DNA of 56,455 nucleotides from Rhodobacterales bacterium (GTDB lineage: Bacteria; Pseudomonadota; Alphaproteobacteria; Rhodobacterales; Rhodobacteraceae). The position numbers were made by a program, and so were the translations under genes. The DNA lies in assembly GCA_017303485.1 (NCBI GenBank), contig JAFLCY010000012.1:1-56455 (forward strand), given 5' to 3'. The notes beneath the pieces are model-generated. The model was not told the origin of the DNA, searched no databases, and saw only the letters and a program-made list of their open reading frames with translations. Positions 7,900 through 48,323 of this stretch are shown here, piece by piece. How positions within the stretch are numbered: the stretch's first letter is position 1; each line of letters starts with the position of its first letter.

Positions 7900-8823
7900 A
7901 TGCGCCCCCTGCGTGGCATTGCCCTGAAACTGGCCTCGGTGATGGTCTTTATCGTTATGGCCTCCATGATAAAGGCCACCTCCGCCCATGTTCCGGCAGG
8001 GCAGGCGGTGTTCTTCCGCTCCTTCTTCGCGATCCCGGTAATCTTCGCCTGGCTGGCCTGGCGGCGCGAACTTCCGGTCGGGCTGAAGACGACGAACCCC
8101 TTCGGCCATTTCTGGCGCGGGCTGATGGGCACGATGGCGATGGGCCTTGGCTTCGCGGGTCTCGGCTACCTGCCATTGCCCGAGGTGACGGCCATCGGCT
8201 ATGCCGCCCCGATCCTCACGGTCATCTTCGCGGCGATGTTCCTGGGTGAGGAGGTGCGGATTTTCCGCATCAGCGCGGTGGTGATGGGTCTGGTTGGCGT
8301 GCTGATCGTGGTCTACCCGCGCCTGACCGTGCTATCGGGCGATGCGGCGGGCTATCTGGAAGCTTTCGGGGCGATGGTCGTGCTGGGTGGGGCGGTCTTC
8401 GCCGCGCTGGCACAGGTGTTCGTGCGCAGGCTCGTCAACACCGAACAGACTGCCGCCATCGTGTTCTACTTCTCGCTGACCGCCTCGGCGCTGTCTCTCG
8501 TGACCATCCCCTTCGGCTGGGTCTGGCCCACGGCAGGCGAGGCCGCGATCCTCGTCGGCGCCGGTCTTCTGGGCGGCCTCGGCCAGATCCTCCTCACCTC
8601 CAGCTACCGCGAAGCCGATGCCTCGCTGGTGGCACCCTTCGACTATGCCTCGATGATCTTCGCGCTGGGGATCGGCTATTTCGTCTTTGCTGAAGTGCCG
8701 ACCTTGCCGATGCTGGGTGGCGCGGCGCTGATCGTCACCGCCGGCATCCTGATCATCTGGCGCGAGCGGAAGCTGGGGCTGGAGCGCGCCCGGCAGCGGA
8801 AGGCGATGACGCCGCAGGGATAG
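7900..8823 (+). CDS. DMT-superfamily transporter (EamA domain)
   Basis: A 307-residue membrane protein with ten predicted hydrophobic segments in two repeated EamA halves. The conserved QAVFFRSFFAIPVIFAWL (first repeat) and SYREADASLVAPFDYASMIFA (second repeat) are typical. Members export amino acids, nucleobases or other metabolites, or import some; the substrate cannot be read from sequence. It is divergent from adenine deaminase, which makes a purine-related role possible but unproven. The start is the ATG in the sequence CTCATGCGC. Its stop codon abuts the dispersed palindrome. Confidence 0.85.
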   Translation: MRPLRGIALKLASVMVFIVMASMIKATSAHVPAGQAVFFRSFFAIPVIFAWLAWRRELPVGLKTTNPFGHFWRGLMGTMAMGLGFAGLGYLPLPEVTAIGYAAPILTVIFAAMFLGEEVRIFRISAVVMGLVGVLIVVYPRLTVLSGDAAGYLEAFGAMVVLGGAVFAALAQVFVRRLVNTEQTAAIVFYFSLTASALSLVTIPFGWVWPTAGEAAILVGAGLLGGLGQILLTSSYREADASLVAPFDYASMIFALGIGYFVFAEVPTLPMLGGAALIVTAGILIIWRERKLGLERARQRKAMTPQG

Positions 8824-8897
8824 CCTCCTCGTTCGACTTCGTCTCCTCGTCGGTGGCACGCGCCCCCGCGAGGAGAAGCCGAAGGCGCACGACGAGC
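8824..8897. repeat. Dispersed convergent-junction palindrome, copy A
   Basis: The element fills the 81-base gap between convergent genes. The left arm contains, on the minus strand, the family core GAGGAGACGAAGTCGAACGA (8829-8848); the right arm (about 8869-8896) is a diverged complement. The stretch 8823-8853 is the exact reverse complement of 17899-17929 (31 bases). Other copies are at 17861, 30680, 36307 and 47887. Confidence 0.8.
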
Positions 8898-8904
8898 CCT
8901 CCGG

Positions 8905-10023
8905 TCAGAGCCCCAGCCGGTCCACCACCCAGACCCCCATCGCCTGTACCATGTCGTCGCGCCAGGACAGCGGGCCGGGTTTGTACAGCGCCGATGCCAA
9001 GGCACGCTGCTGCTTTTCCAGGATCCCCACGTCTTCCTTCGCAACGCGTTCCCACCGGTCGTAATAGGGTTCGGCGCGCGCCTGGAAATCGGGCAGCGCC
9101 AGCCGGTCCTCGGGGAAGCAGCCGCCGACTTCCAGCATGGTGCGGTTCTCGCTGACCGGGATCGTGTTCAGCCACCACAGACAATCCTGAGCGACCGCGA
9201 ACTGCACGGTCGGCATGACCACGGTGAAATAGGTGCCCAGCTTCGCGTCATCATCCAGCCCCTCGATCGGCGGGAACGGCGGCTGGTCCGAGCCGAGCGT
9301 GGCAATCGACCGGCCCGAGATCACCTGAATCGCGATCCAGTCGCCCCGCGTCTCGGGCGAGCGCGACTGCTGCGCTCCCACGGTGTCGCGGTGGACGATA
9401 CCGGTGTGATAGGTCTCGACCGCGTTTTCCAGAATGAGCTTCCAGTTGCAGGACACGTCCAGCGTCATGGACCAGGTGCAGCGCATCTGGCCAAGCTTGT
9501 GGCTGGCCATCCGGTCGGGGAAATCGCCCAGATGCTCGCGCAACGAGGGTCCTTCGCGGGTGAAGCGGGCGAAGACGAAGCCCTCCCACTCGTCAAGATC
9601 CAGGGCCACCAGCCCGTTCTCCACCTTGTCGAAGCCCTCGGCATCCTTCATGTCCGGGCAGCCGAAAAGGCGGCCGTCATTCAGGTAGCTCCAGGCGTGA
9701 TAGGGGCAGGTGATTTTCCCGCCGACATTGCCCTTGCCCTCCAGAAGGATCGAGCCGCGGTGGCGACAGAAATTGGCAAAGCAGCGGAGCTTGCCGTCGT
9801 TGCCGCGGATCAGCACGATCGGCCCGCCCGGGCTGTCGAAGGCGCGGTAGTCACCCGGCTGGGCAAGGTCTTCCGCCCGGCACAGGAAAAACCAGTTCTT
9901 CAGGAACACCCGCTCGCGTTCGGCCTTGAAGATTGCCGGGTCGGTATAGAACCCGGCCGGCATCGAACGGGCGCGGTTGAGAGCCTGGGTGGCGGCTTCA
10001 AGTTCGGCGCGGTCAAGGCTCAT
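8905..10023 (-). CDS. Rieske-type aromatic-ring-hydroxylating/N-demethylating oxygenase, alpha subunit
   Basis: A 372-residue oxygenase subunit. The Rieske [2Fe-2S] ligands are Cys86-x-His88 and Cys106-x2-His109. The catalytic non-haem iron site is seen as NWKLILENAVETYHTGIVH, giving the bridging Glu203, His206 and His211, with Asp331 as likely third ligand. This resembles choline monooxygenase, glycine-betaine and stachydrine demethylases more than classical dioxygenases with alpha-beta subunits. No reductase or beta subunit gene is adjacent. The start ATG 10023 follows GGAGGATCCC; a longer frame upstream lacks similarity. The substrate is unknown; putA two genes away makes a proline-betaine route conceivable. 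Confidence 0.82.
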   Translation of the reverse strand: MSLDRAELEAATQALNRARSMPAGFYTDPAIFKAERERVFLKNWFFLCRAEDLAQPGDYRAFDSPGGPIVLIRGNDGKLRCFANFCRHRGSILLEGKGNVGGKITCPYHAWSYLNDGRLFGCPDMKDAEGFDKVENGLVALDLDEWEGFVFARFTREGPSLREHLGDFPDRMASHKLGQMRCTWSMTLDVSCNWKLILENAVETYHTGIVHRDTVGAQQSRSPETRGDWIAIQVISGRSIATLGSDQPPFPPIEGLDDDAKLGTYFTVVMPTVQFAVAQDCLWWLNTIPVSENRTMLEVGGCFPEDRLALPDFQARAEPYYDRWERVAKEDVGILEKQQRALASALYKPGPLSWRDDMVQAMGVWVVDRLGL

Positions 10024-15780: not shown

Positions 15781-16470
15781 ATGCTCCGACTGGTCCTCGT
15801 TGGGTTATGCCTCGGCCAGCCCGCCGCGGCCGACTGCCGCCTGGCGCTTGCGCTGGCGGTGGATGTCTCGCGCTCGATCGACGCCGCCGACTATGTCATC
15901 CAGACCGACGGGCTGGCGGGGGCGCTTTCGGACCCCGAGGTCCGCGCCGCGATCTTCGGTCCCGAGGGGCAGGTCGCGCTGGCGATCTACTACTGGTCGG
16001 GGCGCGGCTATCAGGACCTCGTCCAGCCCTGGGTGATCCTTGACAGCCCCGAGGCGCTGGATGCCGCGATCTGGGAGGTCCGCCGCACCCCCCGCCCCGC
16101 TGCACCCATGGCCACCGCTCTGGGCGATGCGCTGAGCTACGGCCTCGATTTGATGAGCGACGCCCCGGACTGCGAACGCCGGGTGATCGACGTGGCGGGC
16201 GACGGGCGCAACAACGACGGCATCACCGTCGCCCGTACCTATGAGCGGGAAGATTTCACCGGCATCACCGTGAATGGCCTCGCCGTGGGCGAGCATGAGG
16301 CCGACATCGTCGAGTACTACCACGACGAACTGATCCGCGGCCCCGATGCCTTTGTCGAGGTCGCCCCCCGCCAGACCGACTATCCCGACGCGATCCGCCG
16401 CAAGCTCCTGCGCGAGCTGGAGGGCCCGATGATCGGTGCCCTGCCGCGACGCAATCCGGCCAGGGGCTGA
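15781..16470 (+). CDS. DUF1194 (von Willebrand factor A-like) secreted protein
   Basis: A 229-residue protein with a short signal peptide (MLRLVLVGLCLGQPAAA, cleavage likely after AAA). LALALAVDVSRSID has the DxSxS metal-ion-dependent adhesion motif of VWA domains, and VIDVAGDGRNNDG the conserved second loop. The combination defines DUF1194, a periplasmic VWA-like family common in Rhodobacteraceae with no assigned function. GREGGG-type ribosome-binding bases (GGGGAGGG) stand just before the ATG. A weak stem (16501-16516) with TTTT follows the gene in the gap before the transpeptidase. Confidence 0.82.
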   Translation: MLRLVLVGLCLGQPAAADCRLALALAVDVSRSIDAADYVIQTDGLAGALSDPEVRAAIFGPEGQVALAIYYWSGRGYQDLVQPWVILDSPEALDAAIWEVRRTPRPAAPMATALGDALSYGLDLMSDAPDCERRVIDVAGDGRNNDGITVARTYEREDFTGITVNGLAVGEHEADIVEYYHDELIRGPDAFVEVAPRQTDYPDAIRRKLLRELEGPMIGALPRRNPARG

Positions 16471-16584
16471 CCCAAACCCGCCAAGATTAAGGAAATCCCG
16501 ACCGGATTTTCGCCGGTTTTCCGTTGACTACTGCACGGATAGGGGAATCCTTCCCGCTATTGATAGAAGTATTAGGAGGTTGCC

Positions 16585-17007
16585 ATGCGTCGTCATTTTG
16601 CCGCGCTCCTGCTGGGCCTGCTGCTGTCGCCGGGGGCTGCCCTGGCCGAACGGGTCGTCGCCCATGTCTCGATCGGCTCACAAGAGATGAAGGTCTACCA
16701 TGAGGGGCGGCTCCTTTACACCTGGGCCGTCTCCACCGCCAAGGCGGGCAAGATCACCCCGGCGGGGACTTACGAGCCTGAATTCCTCTCCCGCAACCAC
16801 CGCTCGCGCCGCTACAACAACGCGCCGATGCCCTTTGCCATCTTCTACGACGGCAATTACGCCATCCACGGCACCGACCAGATCAAGCGCCTTGGTAAGC
16901 CCGCCAGCCATGGCTGCGTCAGGCTGGATCCGAAGAACGCGAAGATCCTGTTCGAGATGGTCAAGGCCGAGGGGATGGAAAACACCCGCGTGGTGATCGT
17001 GCAATAG
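16585..17007 (+). CDS. L,D-transpeptidase (YkuD domain)
   Basis: A 140-residue exported protein. A signal peptide (about residues 1-21, ending GAALA) is followed directly by a YkuD domain starting VVAHVSIGSQEMKVY. The catalytic motif HGTDQIKRLGKPASHGCVRL has the family H-G-x(n)-S-H-G-C-V-R pattern, with the nucleophile Cys. Such enzymes cross-link peptidoglycan 3-3 or attach lipoproteins in the periplasm. It lacks a LysM or peptidoglycan-binding domain, so it is a minimal form. TTAGGAGG stands seven bases before the ATG, a strong ribosome-binding site. The 114-base gap upstream suggests its own promoter. Confidence 0.9.
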   Translation: MRRHFAALLLGLLLSPGAALAERVVAHVSIGSQEMKVYHEGRLLYTWAVSTAKAGKITPAGTYEPEFLSRNHRSRRYNNAPMPFAIFYDGNYAIHGTDQIKRLGKPASHGCVRLDPKNAKILFEMVKAEGMENTRVVIVQ

Positions 17008-17074
17008 GCCGACCCCTTCCTTTCCTGACTCCTTCCCGCTATAGCGCCGGGCTTGGAAGCTTCGGGAGCAGACG

Positions 17075-17860
17075 ATGCAGGGCTCGGCCAACCTCAACCT
17101 GATGATCAAGGCCGCCCGCAAGGCGGGCCGCAGCCTCGTGAAGGATTTCCGCGAGGTGGAGAACCTGCAGGTCTCGACCAAGGGGCCGGGCGATTTCGTC
17201 TCGAAGGCGGATCGCGAGGCCGAGCGGCTGATCAAGGAAGAGCTTCTGGGCGCGCGGCCGACCTACGGCTGGCTGGGCGAGGAAACCGGCGGCGCTGCGG
17301 GCGCCGACCCGACCCGGCGCTGGATTGTCGATCCCCTGGACGGAACCACCAACTTCCTGCACGGAATGCCGCATTGGGCCGTCTCGATCGCGCTGGAGCA
17401 TAAGGGAGAGATCGTCTCCGCCGTCGTCTACGACCCGGCCAAGGACGAGATGTTCTGGGCCGAAAAGGGCGCCGGCTGCTGGCTGAACGACAACCGCCGC
17501 CTGCGGGTGTCCGGTCGCCGCGCCATGCATGAGGCGGTGTTCGCGACCGGCGTGCCCTTCGGGGCCAAATCGACGCTGCCCGCAATGCTGAAGGATCTTG
17601 GCCGCCTGATGCCCGCCTGCGCCGGGGTGCGGCGCTGGGGTGCTGCCTCGCTCGACCTCGCCTATGTCGCCGCGGGCCGCTTCGACGGCTATTGGGAGCG
17701 TGAGCTTTCCGCCTGGGACATCGCGGCCGGGATCCTGCTGGTCAAGGAGGCCGGAGGCCTGGTCGAGGGCCTGCGCGAAGGCACCGATCCCCTTGACGGC
17801 GCGCTGATCGCGGCCAACGACGGGCTCTTCAAGGCGATGGCCGAAACGATCCGCGCCTGA
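17075..17860 (+). CDS. Inositol monophosphatase family protein (SuhB-like)
   Basis: A 261-residue Mg-dependent phosphatase. Motifs in order: FVSKADREAE, GEETGG (metal-binding Glu), WIVDPLDGTTNFLHG (metal-binding Asp residues), and WDIAAGILLVKEAGG near the C-terminus. The family hydrolyses inositol-1-phosphate, 3'-phosphoadenosine-5'-phosphate or similar; SuhB also joins rRNA antitermination complexes. The length equals the family norm. It follows the transpeptidase by 67 bases and ends directly at palindrome copy B. The physiological substrate cannot be decided from sequence. Confidence 0.88.
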   Translation: MQGSANLNLMIKAARKAGRSLVKDFREVENLQVSTKGPGDFVSKADREAERLIKEELLGARPTYGWLGEETGGAAGADPTRRWIVDPLDGTTNFLHGMPHWAVSIALEHKGEIVSAVVYDPAKDEMFWAEKGAGCWLNDNRRLRVSGRRAMHEAVFATGVPFGAKSTLPAMLKDLGRLMPACAGVRRWGAASLDLAYVAAGRFDGYWERELSAWDIAAGILLVKEAGGLVEGLREGTDPLDGALIAANDGLFKAMAETIRA

Positions 17861-17929
17861 CGCTCGTCGGAGACTTCGTCTCTCCTCGCAGGTTTCACCC
17901 GACGAGGAGACGAAGTCGAACGAGGAGGC
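17861..17929. repeat. Dispersed convergent-junction palindrome, copy B
   Basis: The element exactly fills the gap between the phosphatase stop (17860) and the metR stop (17931). The core GAGGAGACGAAGTCGAACGA is at 17904-17923 and the left arm, about 17863-17889, is its partial complement. It shares 31 exact bases with copy A (opposite orientation) and 28 with copy E. Confidence 0.85.
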
Positions 17930-17930
17930 G

Positions 17931-18836
17931 TCACCCGCGCTGCAGCTTTACCGGCTCCGACCGCGCCAGCCGCAGGAAATGCGCGATATAGGGCTTCCCC
18001 GCATCCTCTTCCCGCGTCGCCGCATACATCCGCTTCGTCACCACCTCCGGCCCCAACGGTCGCGTGATGTAATCTGCATTGGTCTTCACCTCGCGCATCA
18101 CCCAGTCCGGCAAGACCGCCACCCCCCGGTTCGACCCCACCAGCATCAGGATCACCGCCGTCAGCTCCGCCGTCCGCTGCGCGCGGGGTTCCACCTTGGC
18201 CGGGGTCAGCACTTCGGTGAAGATGTCCAGCTTGTCGCGGCTGACCGGATAGGTGATCAGCACCTGATCGCGGAAATCTTCCGCCGTGATGAACTCTTTC
18301 GCCGCGAGCGGGTTCTGGGCCGACCCGACGAAGGTCGGGTGATAGTCGAACAAGGGGTTGAACACGATCCCCGGCGGCGGTTCGCGGTCCGAGGAGATCA
18401 CCAGATCCACATCCTCCCGGTTCAGAGCGGGCAGGGCCTCGAAGGCCAGACCGGCGCGGATGTCCACGTCGATCTCGGGCCAGGCGTGGCGGAACATCTC
18501 CAGCACCGGAAACAGCCAGTCGAAACAGGCATGGCATTCGATGGCAATATGCAGCCGTCCCGTCCGCCCCGCCCGCAAGGCCCGGAACTCCTCCTCCATC
18601 GCGTCGATTTCCGGCAGGATACGCTCCGCCGCCCGCAGCATCCTGACCCCCGCCGCCGACAGCCGCATCGGTTTCGACCGCCGCACGAACAGCTCCATCC
18701 CCGCCTGATCCTCCAGCCCCTTCACCTGATGCGACAGCGCGGATTGCGTCATGTTCAGCATGTCCGCCGCCCGGGCCAACCCCCCGGCCTGCTGGATCGC
18801 CCGGATCGTGCGCAGGTGGCGCAGTTCGACGTACAT
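17931..18836 (-). CDS. metR: MetR-type LysR transcriptional regulator
   Basis: A 301-residue LysR protein. The N-terminal winged helix (residues 1-60) includes AADMLNMTQSALSHQVKGLE, and the effector-binding domain follows with LHIAIECHACFDWLFPVLEMF, a segment characteristic of MetR. MetR activates methionine-synthesis genes using homocysteine as co-effector. It is divergent from metF with an 86-base gap that contains a GTGAGA/TCTCAC dyad, the expected arrangement for MetR-metF control. The stop is adjacent to palindrome B. Confidence 0.88.
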   Translation of the reverse strand: MYVELRHLRTIRAIQQAGGLARAADMLNMTQSALSHQVKGLEDQAGMELFVRRSKPMRLSAAGVRMLRAAERILPEIDAMEEEFRALRAGRTGRLHIAIECHACFDWLFPVLEMFRHAWPEIDVDIRAGLAFEALPALNREDVDLVISSDREPPPGIVFNPLFDYHPTFVGSAQNPLAAKEFITAEDFRDQVLITYPVSRDKLDIFTEVLTPAKVEPRAQRTAELTAVILMLVGSNRGVAVLPDWVMREVKTNADYITRPLGPEVVTKRMYAATREEDAGKPYIAHFLRLARSEPVKLQRG

Positions 18837-30580: not shown

Positions 30581-30679
30581 CTGCCCGCCCGTGGGCACTT
30601 TGCTGAAGCGTGGAAAATCAATGGGTTGGTCGCTGGCGTTTACGCCAGGTTAACCTTGATGCCGCAAGCCTGGGGACGG

Positions 30680-30753
30680 CTCCTCGGGCACTTCGTACAC
30701 TCCTCGCAGGGGTGCGCAGACCCTTCCGACGAGTGCACGAAGTGCTCGAGGAG
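30680..30753. repeat. Dispersed convergent-junction palindrome, copy C
   Basis: A long stem: 30680-30706 pairs with 30727-30753 at 24 of 27 positions around a 20-base loop. Both arms carry the family frame CTCCTCG...CTTCG...CTCCTCG, but with CACTTCGT and CACGAAGTG in place of GACTTCGTC-type bases, so changes in one arm are matched in the other. It lies between topA and choV; the other bases of this 179-base gap (30581-30679) hold only a short CCC/GGG stem after topA. Confidence 0.8.
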
Positions 30754-30759
30754 GGGCCC

Positions 30760-31803
30760 CTAGCCCCGCGGGTTGATCAGCTTGGCCATCAGGCTTGCCG
30801 TCCGGACCATCCCCAGATTGCGGCCGTTGTCCGTCACCACCAGCTCGGCCACCCCCTTCGACATCAGGTCGAGGATATCCTTGACCGGCGTTTCGGCGGG
30901 CAGCTCGTGCGAGGTGGCAGAGGCCACGCCGGGCTCCATCACATCCCGCGCAGTCAGCACGCCCAGCGGGTTCATGTGGGCGACGAAATCCGCCACATAT
31001 TCGCTGACCGGATTGGCGATGATCTCGCGCGCGGTGCCGCACTGGACGATCCGGCCGCCCTCCATCAGCGCGATGCGGTTGCCGATCTTGAACGCCTCGT
31101 CGAGGTCATGGCTGACGAAGATGATCGTGCGCTTCAGTTTCCGTTGCAGGTCCAGCAGTTCATCCTGCAGCTTGGTGCGGATCAACGGGTCGAGCGCCGA
31201 GAAGGGCTCGTCCATCAGCAGGATCGGCGCCTCGGTCGCAAAGGCGCGGGCAAGGCCCACGCGCTGCTGCATGCCCCCCGACAGGTCGCCCACCTTGCGC
31301 TCGGCCCATTGGCTTAGGTTCACCAGTTCAAGCTGGGCATCGACACGGGGCCTGCGCGCCTCGGGCGACATGCCGGCAAGCTCCAGTCCAAGGCCCACGT
31401 TTTCCCGCACCGTGCGCCAGGGCAAGAGGCCGAACTGCTGGAAGACCATCGCCACCCGCGTCGCGCGCAACCGGCGCAGCGTCTCGGGGTTGGCCTTGGT
31501 GACCGAGACCATCTTGTCGTCCTCAAGCACCCGCACCTCGCCCCGGACCACCGGGTTCAACGCGTTTACCCCGCGCAGCAGCGTGGATTTGCCCGAGCCG
31601 GAAAGCCCCATGAGAACAAGGATTTCGCCCTCGGCCACGGTCAGCGAGCAATCGTGGACGCCCAGCACCTGTCCAGTGGCCTGCTGCACCTCGGTCCGGG
31701 TCTTGCCCTGGTCCATCAGCGGCAGGGCGCGGTCGGGATGGTCGCCAAAAACGATGGAGACGCGGTCGAATTCTACGGCGGCCCGGCTTGTTGAACTGCT
31801 CAT
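30760..31803 (-). CDS. choV: Choline ABC transporter ATP-binding protein
   Basis: A 347-residue ATPase of the OpuA/ProV group. Walker A GLSGSGKST, Q-loop MVFQQFGLLPWRTV, signature LSGGMQQRVGLA, Walker B ILLMDEPFSALD. The C-terminal part has a CBS-like domain (RDVMEPGVA, ILDLMSKGVAELVVTDNGR), which in ProV-type proteins senses osmolarity or ligand. Context with choX, choW and betI identifies it as ChoV of the choline importer. Its start overlaps the choW stop by four bases (ATGA). Confidence 0.9.
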   Translation of the reverse strand: MSSSTSRAAVEFDRVSIVFGDHPDRALPLMDQGKTRTEVQQATGQVLGVHDCSLTVAEGEILVLMGLSGSGKSTLLRGVNALNPVVRGEVRVLEDDKMVSVTKANPETLRRLRATRVAMVFQQFGLLPWRTVRENVGLGLELAGMSPEARRPRVDAQLELVNLSQWAERKVGDLSGGMQQRVGLARAFATEAPILLMDEPFSALDPLIRTKLQDELLDLQRKLKRTIIFVSHDLDEAFKIGNRIALMEGGRIVQCGTAREIIANPVSEYVADFVAHMNPLGVLTARDVMEPGVASATSHELPAETPVKDILDLMSKGVAELVVTDNGRNLGMVRTASLMAKLINPRG

Positions 31804-36063: not shown

Positions 36064-36300
36064 ATGTCGAATACCCCGCACACGCTGCATGAGGAATTCC
36101 CGGCGGACGGGCAGAAGATCAGCGCCCTGAAAGTATCTGACGCGCATTTCGCGCGGCTGCTGACCGAGTACGATGCGGTCAACGACAAGGTGCATCGGTC
36201 GGAGACCCGGCTGGACCTTCTGACCGAGGAAGAGGAAGAACACCTGCGCAAGGCGCGGTCGCGGTTGAAGGACCAAATCGCATCGGCGCTGCGGAAATAG
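36064..36300 (+). CDS. YdcH/DUF465 family small protein
   Basis: A 78-residue charged, helical protein. The C-terminal two thirds (HFARLLTEYDAVNDKVHRSE, then LTEEEEEHLRKARSRLKDQI) is the DUF465/YdcH coiled-coil pattern. Function is unknown in the family; a two-helix hairpin is expected. AAGAAGGAG stands close before the ATG. The gene stands alone between betA and the convergent pccR, with an FNR-type promoter in front, which suggests higher expression when oxygen is low. A YdcH-like call is firm by pattern, the physiological role is not. Confidence 0.82.
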   Translation: MSNTPHTLHEEFPADGQKISALKVSDAHFARLLTEYDAVNDKVHRSETRLDLLTEEEEEHLRKARSRLKDQIASALRK

Positions 36301-36306
36301 CCACCG

Positions 36307-36371
36307 CTCGTCGTTCGCCTTCGACGTCTCCTCGCTGGCGCACCGAGGAGGAAACGCAGTGAACGACGAGG
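36307..36371. repeat. Dispersed convergent-junction palindrome, copy D
   Basis: The left arm (36307-36335) and right arm (36344-36371) are imperfect complements of the family type, with CTCGTCGTTCG at the outer left edge and CGAACGACGAG-like CGTGAACGACGAG at the outer right. This is the most diverged copy. It fills the gap between the ydcH-like gene and pccR. Confidence 0.65.
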
Positions 36372-36372
36372 C

Positions 36373-37767
36373 CTAGCCGATCTCGTAGGGCAGCACGTCG
36401 CGGGCATTGGGGTTGATCTTCAACCGCCCCTCCAGCGGTGGCACCGAGCGCTGATGGCAGTTCACCCGTTCGCAGATCCGGCAGGAAATACCGATGGGCT
36501 CGAACCGTCCTTTCAGGTCGAGCCCGTCGGAATAGACCAGTTGCGGCGCGTGCTGCACCTCGCAGCCAAGGCCGATGGCATAGCGGCGGACCGGGGCTAG
36601 GAAGGCCCCAGCCGGTTTCGAGACATCGCGCGCGAGGCAGAGATAGCGGATCCCGTCCGGGGTCTCTGCCAGTTGGCGCAGGAATTGTCCGGGGGTTTCA
36701 AAGGCCTGGTGGACGTTCCACAAGGGGCAGGCCCCGCCGAAACGGGCGAATTGCAGGCGCGTCGAGGAGTGGCGTTTGGTGATCGTGCCGGCCTGATCGA
36801 CGCGGACGAAAAAGAACGGGATGCCCTTGGCCCCGGGCCGCTGCATGGTGGACAGCCGGTGGCCGACCTGTTCGATGCTCGCGCCGAAGATGTCGGCCAG
36901 ACGTTCGAGATCGTGGCGCACCTCCTGTGCGGCACTCAGGAAGGCGCGGTAGGGCAGAAGGGCCGCCCCGGCGAAGTAGTTCGCCAGCCCGATCTTGGCG
37001 ATGTCGCGCGCCTCGGCCGTGGAGAAACGGGCAAGGTCGAGCGTCGCTTCCAGAAGGTCGTTTTGGGTCAGGAGCGCGACCTGATGCAGCAGCTGGAAGC
37101 GTTGCGAGGGGCCTTGCGCGCGGGCAGAAATGTCGAGCCGTCGCGCCTGCGGATCGTAATGGCGCAAGGGCGCGGTGTTCGAGTAGTGCAGGCTGATCCC
37201 CGCCCGCTTCAGCAAGTCCTGCGCCAGGGTCTCAATCGGCTTCCCGTTGCTCGCCGAGGTCGCGAAATGCTCGGCGGCGCGGTCGATGGCATCGAGATAG
37301 TTGTCGCAGTAGTGGAAGAAGTCGCGCACCTCCTCCCAGGCCGAGGGGCGGATCGAGGCATCCTCGCGCCCCAGCGCCTCGTCAAGGGAGGCGAGGCGTT
37401 CGTGGGTCTGCCGGTAAGCGCGGTGCAGGTCAAGGAAGGCACGGGCCAGCGCCGGGGCGTTCGAGGCGGCAAGGCGGAGGTCGGCCAGCGGCGGCGTGGC
37501 GGTGGAGAACACGGGATCGGCCAGCGCCTCGCGCATGTCCGTGACCAGGCGTTCGCTTTCGCCGACGGTCAGTTCGGTCACGTCCAACCCGAATTCCTGC
37601 GCCAGCGCCAGCACCACGGCGGCGCTGACCGGGCGGTGGTTGTTTTCCATCTGGTTCAGATAGGGCAGCGACACCGAAAGCTTGTCGGCAAAGGCCTTCT
37701 GGGTCAGGGACAACCGCCCGCGAATCTCGCGCAGCTTGACCCCGGCGTAGAGTTTCTGGGTGGCCAT
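36373..37767 (-). CDS. pccR: PccR/ScfR short-chain acyl-CoA-responsive XRE regulator
   Basis: A 464-residue regulator. The N-terminal XRE helix-turn-helix (about 8-65) includes REIRGRLSLTQKAFADKLS and PYLNQMENNHRPVS. The middle part is the IrrE-like/ScfR domain, and the C-terminus has a cysteine-bearing segment (GISCRICERVNCHQRSVPP). This is the layout of ScfR proteins such as PccR of Rhodobacter sphaeroides, which controls propionyl-CoA assimilation and binds paired TTTGCAAA half-sites. Such half-sites lie directly upstream of this start codon and before pccB. An MFS and a DUF486 gene intervene between regulator and pccB. Homologues RamB and MccR act on related pathways. Confidence 0.88.
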   Translation of the reverse strand: MATQKLYAGVKLREIRGRLSLTQKAFADKLSVSLPYLNQMENNHRPVSAAVVLALAQEFGLDVTELTVGESERLVTDMREALADPVFSTATPPLADLRLAASNAPALARAFLDLHRAYRQTHERLASLDEALGREDASIRPSAWEEVRDFFHYCDNYLDAIDRAAEHFATSASNGKPIETLAQDLLKRAGISLHYSNTAPLRHYDPQARRLDISARAQGPSQRFQLLHQVALLTQNDLLEATLDLARFSTAEARDIAKIGLANYFAGAALLPYRAFLSAAQEVRHDLERLADIFGASIEQVGHRLSTMQRPGAKGIPFFFVRVDQAGTITKRHSSTRLQFARFGGACPLWNVHQAFETPGQFLRQLAETPDGIRYLCLARDVSKPAGAFLAPVRRYAIGLGCEVQHAPQLVYSDGLDLKGRFEPIGISCRICERVNCHQRSVPPLEGRLKINPNARDVLPYEIG

Positions 37768-47787: not shown

Positions 47788-47828
47788 CAGCGCGCCGCGT
47801 GGGCAGCTTTTTCGTATCAAAGATTTCA

Positions 47829-47866
47829 AAGAGTTATCCGTGGATGTTTACCAACTGGTAACTCTT
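47829..47866. other. AT-rich stretch with two competing hairpins after mcm
   Basis: The gap 47788-47951 contains this stretch and palindrome copy E. AAGAGTTA-T-CC (47829-47839) can pair with GGTAACTCTT (47857-47866). Alternatively TTACC (47848-47852) pairs with GGTAA (47857-47861) around AACT. Both use the same 3' arm. The low GC content contrasts with flanking DNA. Confidence 0.5.
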
Positions 47867-47886
47867 GAAGCTTGCCTTGAACAAAA

Positions 47887-47949
47887 GCTCGTCGGGGACT
47901 TCGTCACTCCTCGCTGGGGCGCCGACGAGGAGACGAAGTCGAACGAGGA
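47887..47949. repeat. Dispersed convergent-junction palindrome, copy E
   Basis: Left arm 47887-47914, right arm 47922-47949 with the core GAGGAGACGAAGTCGAACGA at 47927-47946. It shares 28 exact bases with copy B and lies next to the stop of the 47952 gene. Confidence 0.82.
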
Positions 47950-47951
47950 AG

Positions 47952-48323
47952 CTAAAGCTCGATCTCGCCGTTCGGACCGGGTTGTGGCAGGGCGTCGAGC
48001 TTCGGGATCAGGGGAGCATTGCGCCGGATCAGGATGTCGCCGTTCGGCAGCATGACCGGGGCGTCGTAGTTCTTGATGTCGTCGATCAGCGCGATGAGCT
48101 GCTGCAGCTTCGGCCCCAGTTCCTTGAGATGCGGCTCGACCTCTTGCAGCGCCTTGCCCATCTCGTCCAGCGCGGGCTGCATCTCGGACATCATGCCGCG
48201 CATCACCAGTTTCATGCCTTCTTCCATCAGGCTGAAACCGTCGTCTTCGGCTTTCGGCACCGGAAGGGCATCCTCGGCGAACGCCGGGGAGGTGATCAGG
48301 CAGAGGGCGAAAAGCAGTCGCAT
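47952..48323 (-). CDS. Small secreted hypothetical protein
   Basis: A 123-residue protein with a short signal peptide (MRLLFALCLITSPAFA) and an acidic, helical mature part. GFSLMEEGMKLVMRGMMSEM, QPALDEMGKALQEVEPHLKEL and APVMLPNGDILIRRNAP are conserved-looking segments that I associate with a Rhodobacteraceae-specific periplasmic family, sometimes mislabelled AAA+ ATPase; no nucleotide-binding motif is present here. A coiled-coil is likely in the Met/Leu-rich middle. It lies 31 bases upstream of the EEP gene's end on the same strand. Function unknown. Confidence 0.72.
   Translation of the reverse strand: MRLLFALCLITSPAFAEDALPVPKAEDDGFSLMEEGMKLVMRGMMSEMQPALDEMGKALQEVEPHLKELGPKLQQLIALIDDIKNYDAPVMLPNGDILIRRNAPLIPKLDALPQPGPNGEIEL

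Follow-up and report, generated by a model that had tools for sequence, protein, structure and literature searches.

Candidate two-way mRNA 3′-end hairpins: a family of REP-like palindromes past gene stops in a Tabrizicola-related bacterium

Five Class I Palindromes in the Window

In the window, i.e., the whole stretch of 56,455 nt that was analyzed, five copies of an imperfect palindrome, designated class I, were found at the places where they had been predicted. The features are given below with the bit scores of the model R1, which was trained on 33 copies of the same genome, C and D among them. The class III repeat mentioned for two spacers is described together with junction B.

8821..8900 (−): copy A, class I palindrome; R1 69.9 bits; between convergent genes 7900–8823 (+) and 8905–10023 (−)
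17859..17931 (+): copy B, class I palindrome; R1 92.2 bits, the best in its own genome; fills the gap between the stops of 17075–17860 (+) and 17931–18836 (−)
30581..30675 (+): spacer preceding C, perhaps a degenerate class III repeat; by-eye likeness to spacers in sites L318, L321 and L324 of the genome G011
30676..30757 (+): copy C, diverged class I palindrome; R1 51.8 bits; folding z −6.6; adjoins the stop of 30760–31803 (−)
36303..36374 (+): copy D, diverged class I palindrome, fully matched form; R1 59.4 bits; between 36064–36300 (+) and 36373–37767 (−)
47788..47883 (+): spacer preceding E, perhaps a degenerate class III repeat; by-eye likeness to the same G011 spacers (L318, L321, L324)
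47884..47954 (+): copy E, class I palindrome; R1 81.3 bits; adjoins the stop of 47952–48323 (−)

According to our own gene caller, all five copies lie in convergent junctions, as had been claimed. The caller gives 11 such junctions in the window instead of the twelve counted before; of the remaining six, four have unrelated hairpins and two have gaps of 19 and 3 nt.

Recomputation gave the same 31 identical bases of A and B in opposite orientation; for B and E, where 28 bases had been noted earlier, it gave a common stretch of 31 nt at 97% identity; A and E have 33 nt in common at 97% identity. The 20-mer GAGGAGACGAAGTCGAACGA is present exactly in A, B, and E, and a search allowing up to three mismatches gave these three matches in comparison with 0.01 expected by chance. 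The 20-mer search did not reach C and D. These two are diverged members of class I. Their R1 scores are partly circular because both sequences are in the R1 alignment, and support for D independent of the training comes from its orthologue in G011, a genome outside the model, which scores 57.1 bits. Folding z-scores of the five copies range from −2.4 to −6.6. In addition, an A-type palindrome was found at the same gene pair in the loci L061, L062, and L063. The Rfam search of the window identified a single tRNA and nothing else.

Structure of the Class I Palindrome

In the alignment of 33 copies, class I is an imperfect palindrome of approximately 70 nt with arms of approximately 30 nt and a variable loop. 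The consensus consists of GCTCGTCG, two variable bases, GACTTCGTC, one base, CTCCTCGC, the loop, CCGACGAGGAG, ACGAAGTC, GA, and ACGAGGAGG. In its commonest form, the outer CTCGTCG stands opposite CGAGGAG with a central G–G mismatch, and the inner CTCCTCG stands opposite CGACGAG with a central C–C mismatch. The centre bases are coupled: the double mismatch occurs in 24 of the 91 copies of the genome census given below and both centres are matched in 10, the rest being mixed or having at least one unreadable centre. Downstream of the hairpin, about two T per 12 nt are present, which is the expectation from base composition; thus, class I lacks the U-tract of a canonical intrinsic terminator.

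Analysis by arm-swap folding showed that 28 diverged copies of the own genome pair with their own arms better than in any of 2000 permutations. For ten D orthologues, the corresponding values were 5/2000 on one strand and 22/2000 on the other, and arm co-variation was absent in 46 near-consensus copies (863/2000). This pattern fits a spread of near-identical copies followed by drift with the pairing kept, and copying from arm to arm could be another way to keep it.

Genome Census and Placement at Gene Ends

With copy B as the query, BLASTN located 40 near full-length places in the own genome (4.38 Mb), along with weaker matches on the opposite strand. Model R1 gave 149 strand matches and at least 91 separate places at 40 bits or more; the number 91 is a floor, since the R1 census scored 150 of 5207 first-look candidates. 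With gene calls from our own crude script, which filed C182:25026 as convergent in one pass and as tandem in another, 51 copies are convergent, 35 tandem, and 3 divergent, one is inside a gene, and one is at a contig end. A stop codon lies within 20 nt of 81 of the 91 copies, and the median distance to the stop is 3 nt; the ten copies lying more than 20 nt from any 3′ end include the three in divergent gaps. Among the convergent copies, 35/51 are within 20 nt of both stops. As for the tandem copies, 29/35 are closer to the upstream stop than to the downstream start, 28/35 being within 20 nt of that stop and 6/35 within 20 nt of the start. The strictly convergent placement of the original prediction is thus true of the window alone, and the gene 3′ end is a better placement rule than convergence.

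The convergent enrichment is nevertheless real. The window was left out of the enrichment test since it had been chosen for its copies. Outside it, 46 convergent copies were counted versus 38 tandem or divergent ones, the corresponding numbers of surveyed gaps 60 nt or longer being 23 and 144 (Fisher p 2e-11). These gaps come from a survey of 456 kb (the window and 20 stretches of the own genome) with 53 convergent, 321 tandem, and 52 divergent junctions, where gaps of at least 60 nt number 29, 125, and 48 and contain copies in 9, 4, and 0 cases, respectively. In the surveyed stretches without the window, a copy is present in 4/23 convergent and 4/144 other gaps (p 0.013). Placement depends on gene orientation, as predicted. 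Of the two outcomes that would have spoken against the prediction, orientation-blind placement was not observed, the copies following gene 3′ ends, and an origin from decayed coding sequence was rejected with one of 91 copies inside a called gene.

No stop-codon preference was seen, with 82 TGA, 27 TAG, and 7 TAA beside the element and 317, 78, and 34 in the genome. Only two places on the largest contig met (G000 contig C1, 194,862 bases) match R1, one strongly and one weakly; with a listed contamination of 6% for the genome, this contig may be foreign or else a replicon of its own.

Distribution and Search for a Mobilizing Enzyme

The nearest named relatives of the own genome are Tabrizicola, and the best named matches to a protein of the window belonged to Tabrizicola species and MAGs. 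Class I matches with an E value of 0.01 or better were obtained in all 31 other genomes of the genus that were searched, their number varying widely from 2 to at least 48 strand matches. Among 69 genomes of other genera, one gave a weak match (G087, E 0.007), and class I is present in 4 of 293 other genomes sampled from the family. In these four genomes, all of other genera, the best copy (one inspected in each) lies between convergent genes and adjoins both stops in 4/4 cases. With at least 91 copies in the own genome and its genus-wide occurrence, class I is an amplified dispersed family, as had been suggested.

As for mobility, a gain at junction D can be placed on the tree, as described below. 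A RAYT-type transposase, which the original prediction proposed to seek, was not found: in the 25 of 32 genus genomes searched for Y1_Tnp (PF01797), there was no match over the cut-off, with two weak sub-threshold matches and with E. coli and Caulobacter as positive controls, and a RAYT-driven REP was rejected on these grounds. Comparison of filled and empty D sites revealed no target-site duplication distinguishable from the stop codons. Plasmid-borne spread was rejected as well, copy B having no match in 72,556 plasmid records.

Gain and Loss of the Palindrome at Orthologous Gene Ends

The states of the D junction were typed by eye. In six early-branching genomes (G007, G014, G017, G020, G024, and G029), the D stops overlap or abut, and G028 is also without the element. 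Of the 21 genomes that form a clade with 93/96 support, 16 have the element in whole or shortened form; other hairpins have taken its place in three (G001, G009, and G021), and in two (G010 and G030) it is absent, the stops abutting or being one base apart. The D end is without any element in 9 of the 28 genomes typed, and presence and absence require a minimum of three changes on the tree. The tree was constructed from two genes and has 12 weak inner forks of 32, the forks relevant to D having 93/96 support; the D copy of G003, a genome with two D genes, may be contamination. Judging from this tree, the class I palindrome is gained at D, where the two stops of earlier-branching species overlap or abut.

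At gene H, the element adjoins the stop downstream in 8 of 26 loci and is missing in 18, and at gene F it is found nearby in 4/29 loci.

Exchange of Palindromes at Junction B

Junction B is the 3′ end of the gene 17075–17860, for which a match was obtained in 29 of the 32 genus genomes. Class I (model R1) is present at this end in ten of the 29, class II (model R2) in another ten, and neither in nine. Typing by eye agrees with R1/R2 except for G025, where R1 missed a decayed copy; model typing of junctions took 84 of 88 loci (without L189, L364, L391, and L392). Class I occurs here in both orientations. The exchange between class I and class II requires at least four changes on the tree (11 genomes with the same convergent partner 69–96 nt away), and the orientation of class I requires at least three (ten class I genomes of the inner clade), many forks being weak in both cases. 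Thus, in species whose flanking proteins are approximately 90–98% identical, the same 3′ end has class I in one orientation or the other, or it has an unrelated hairpin, or it is empty.

Class II consists of three hairpins in a row and is unrelated to class I; at junction B it is found in L162, L164, L168, L174, L175, L176, L179, L180, L181, and L188. It occurs throughout the genus, with weaker matches in five genomes of other genera, is scarce in the own genome (three strand matches), and prefers 3′ ends (21/27 sites of G011, 27 of about 32 places being used). Among the 45 G011 sites examined, 13 have both neighbour genes in common with a class I site of G000; class I is present at 11 of these and class II at 2; in one of the 11 (L318 and C158:5481), the same unusual arm order is found in opposite orientation. 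A competition between the classes visible as opposed copy numbers was tried and rejected, since the trend is not significant (Spearman −0.24, p 0.18, n = 32, with lower-bound counts on both strands included).

A block of three genes (window 15781–17860) is inverted relative to L065:14284–16361. The 3′ end of the B gene has class II in L065 and class I in the window, so a palindrome is present on both sides of the inversion.

A further repeat of approximately 75–95 nt, class III, judged by eye, adjoins stops and combines a GTCCACnGTGGAC palindrome with a TTGAAATCA core; it was noted in L318, L321, L324, and at the F junction in L335–L364. Neither the window nor 20 stretches of the own genome contain its strict palindrome. 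Eight loci containing sites of class I, II, or III gave no Rfam match.

Discussion

Class I hairpins lie mostly just past gene ends and probably mark the ends of messages; at the same spot, related species have another hairpin or none. We consider that this REP-like palindrome of approximately 70 nt, found without a known transposase, may well act as a two-way, U-less mRNA 3′-end hairpin, the chances for and against being about equal. Transcribed from either strand, it would form one long hairpin starting approximately 3 nt past the stop codon. The hairpin would define where the mRNA ends, either by terminating transcription in the absence of a U-tract or by blocking 3′-to-5′ exonucleases once termination has occurred further downstream, or by both. 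Since the arms are complementary, one palindrome could act for both members of a convergent gene pair; between tandem genes, it could act for the upstream one.

We infer such an action at the RNA level, whether termination or protection, and selection for it from the placement and from the literature on U-less and stable 3′ structures. In the high-GC alphaproteobacterium Methylosinus, U-less hairpins are described as common 3′ ends (PMC12403871); trimming of Rho-terminated transcripts is halted by stable RNA structures, according to PMC12350095; and for Rhodobacter, stable structures are mentioned in PMC7866481 as one possible explanation for PNPase-dependent 3′ ends. The family itself is dispersed, sits at 3′ ends, keeps its arm pairing in divergence, is gained and lost by lineage, and swaps with an unrelated hairpin family. 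The retention of a hairpin at one 3′ end while its sequence changes, as at junction B, was counted in favor of the 3′-end role, along with the stable folding, the closeness to stops, the arm pairing of diverged copies, and the convergent setting of the four copies inspected in other genera. The original prediction of a bidirectional 3′-end or transcription-collision device stands as to the 3′ end; a device for collisions only fits less well, since 35/91 copies are tandem and 29 of these 35 are nearer the upstream stop. The points against the 3′-end role are the missing U-tract, the ten copies off 3′ ends, the lack of co-variation in near-consensus copies, and the many orthologous ends without the element. 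A scarcity of canonical terminators at element-bearing ends was tried as a further sign and rejected as not clear (2/116 versus 9/161). The gene with the far stop at convergent sites has its own T-tailed hairpin at 2/22 far ends under a strict rule, and these hairpins, though few, suit a division of labor.

Possible, though in our estimate somewhat doubtful, is a selfish or neutral repeat that multiplies by some route and survives just past stops, where coding sequence and promoters are unharmed. The arms would then stay complementary through the spreading process itself or through template switching between them, and not because the host uses them. The wide range of copy numbers within the genus, the gain, loss, and shortening at D, and the near-identical copies, which look recently spread, agree with such a repeat. 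Avoidance alone would not need a placement as tight as approximately 3 nt past the stop, however, and tandem copies hug the upstream stop. Mismatched centre bases also persist in 24 copies, so arm-to-arm copying is not dominant.

Convergent enrichment would also be expected of a site acting in DNA, namely, a cruciform or a gyrase or nucleoid-protein site that takes up positive supercoils where genes converge, a role suggested for some BIMEs. We regard this as improbable: the 35 tandem copies hug one stop, and the replacement by an unrelated hairpin at the same site would not be allowed at a sequence-specific one. Ordinary intrinsic terminators alike by convergence, suggested by stable hairpins past stops, are very improbable, as the shared sequence is far beyond chance (the GAGGAGACGAAGTCGAACGA test and the 40 near full-length places in one genome), the T run is absent, and on sequence likeness the copies have a common origin.

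Returning to the 3′-end hairpin, we tentatively propose a wider reading in which gene 3′ ends of the genus are slots for exchangeable palindromic cassettes. Unrelated families (class I, the Br-REP1-like class II, and perhaps class III) would swap, flip, and be gained or lost at the stop without RAYT, the slot being kept while its filler turns over. If so, a hairpin would be selected at such ends whatever its sequence, and palindromes would be copied to gene 3′ ends by some further route. This touches the old question of whether palindromes of the REP type act as parasites or as signals of mRNA ends: the changing occupants of one 3′ end (class I facing either way, an unrelated hairpin, or none) make a natural swap experiment, in a family that has spread in genomes where no REP transposase of the known type was detected (Y1, 25 genomes searched). 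The exchange and flipping of palindromes at junction B are new, as is the presence of class I at D, a junction whose two stops, in earlier-branching species, abut or overlap.

Comparison with Known Repeat Systems

Among the papers that one open-access library lists for palindromic repeats of Paracoccus, Rhodobacteraceae, Tabrizicola, or Rhodobacterales, none deals with the class I family to judge by its listing. Its placement is not new, since convergent REPs no more than 20 bp from both stops were described in 2013 (PMC3733652). The proposed comparison with REP/BIME elements is sound, and class I is a separate family from both the GTAG and the CGTC REPs. As characterized in that source, GTAG REPs and BIMEs with RAYT are likewise dispersed, mostly intergenic, close to gene 3′ ends, and hairpin-forming; unlike them, class I has no GTAG tag at the hairpin foot, the 33-copy alignment showing no conserved unpaired tag, and no accompanying Y1 transposase over the cut-off (25 genus genomes).

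Di Nocera et al. (2013, PMC3733652) define CGTC REPs by a stem of 8–9 bp beginning with A–T pairs, a loop of 4–5 nt, a CGTC tag left unpaired, and a CCA tail. As far as that account goes, they resemble class I in being palindromic and alphaproteobacterial, in having convergent copies less than 20 bp from both 3′ ends (35/51 for class I within 20 nt), and in having no dedicated transposase. Class I differs in its length of approximately 70 nt, its long internally mismatched arms, and the absence of a CGTC tag and CCA tail; in the 33-copy alignment, neither the stem and loop nor the tail of CGTC REPs was found.

The bidirectional intrinsic terminators of Zymomonas, in the description available from PMC7566282, are similar in that one hairpin lies between converging genes and is over-represented there; in contrast to these terminators with their U- and A-tracts, class I copies share sequence and have no tracts. 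Br-REP1 of Bradyrhizobium, as outlined in PMC5082802, is also an alphaproteobacterial repeat of convergent 3′-UTRs with a copy number strongly variable between species. Unlike class I, it consists of three separate palindromes, and it resembles class II, the occupant of the same slots.
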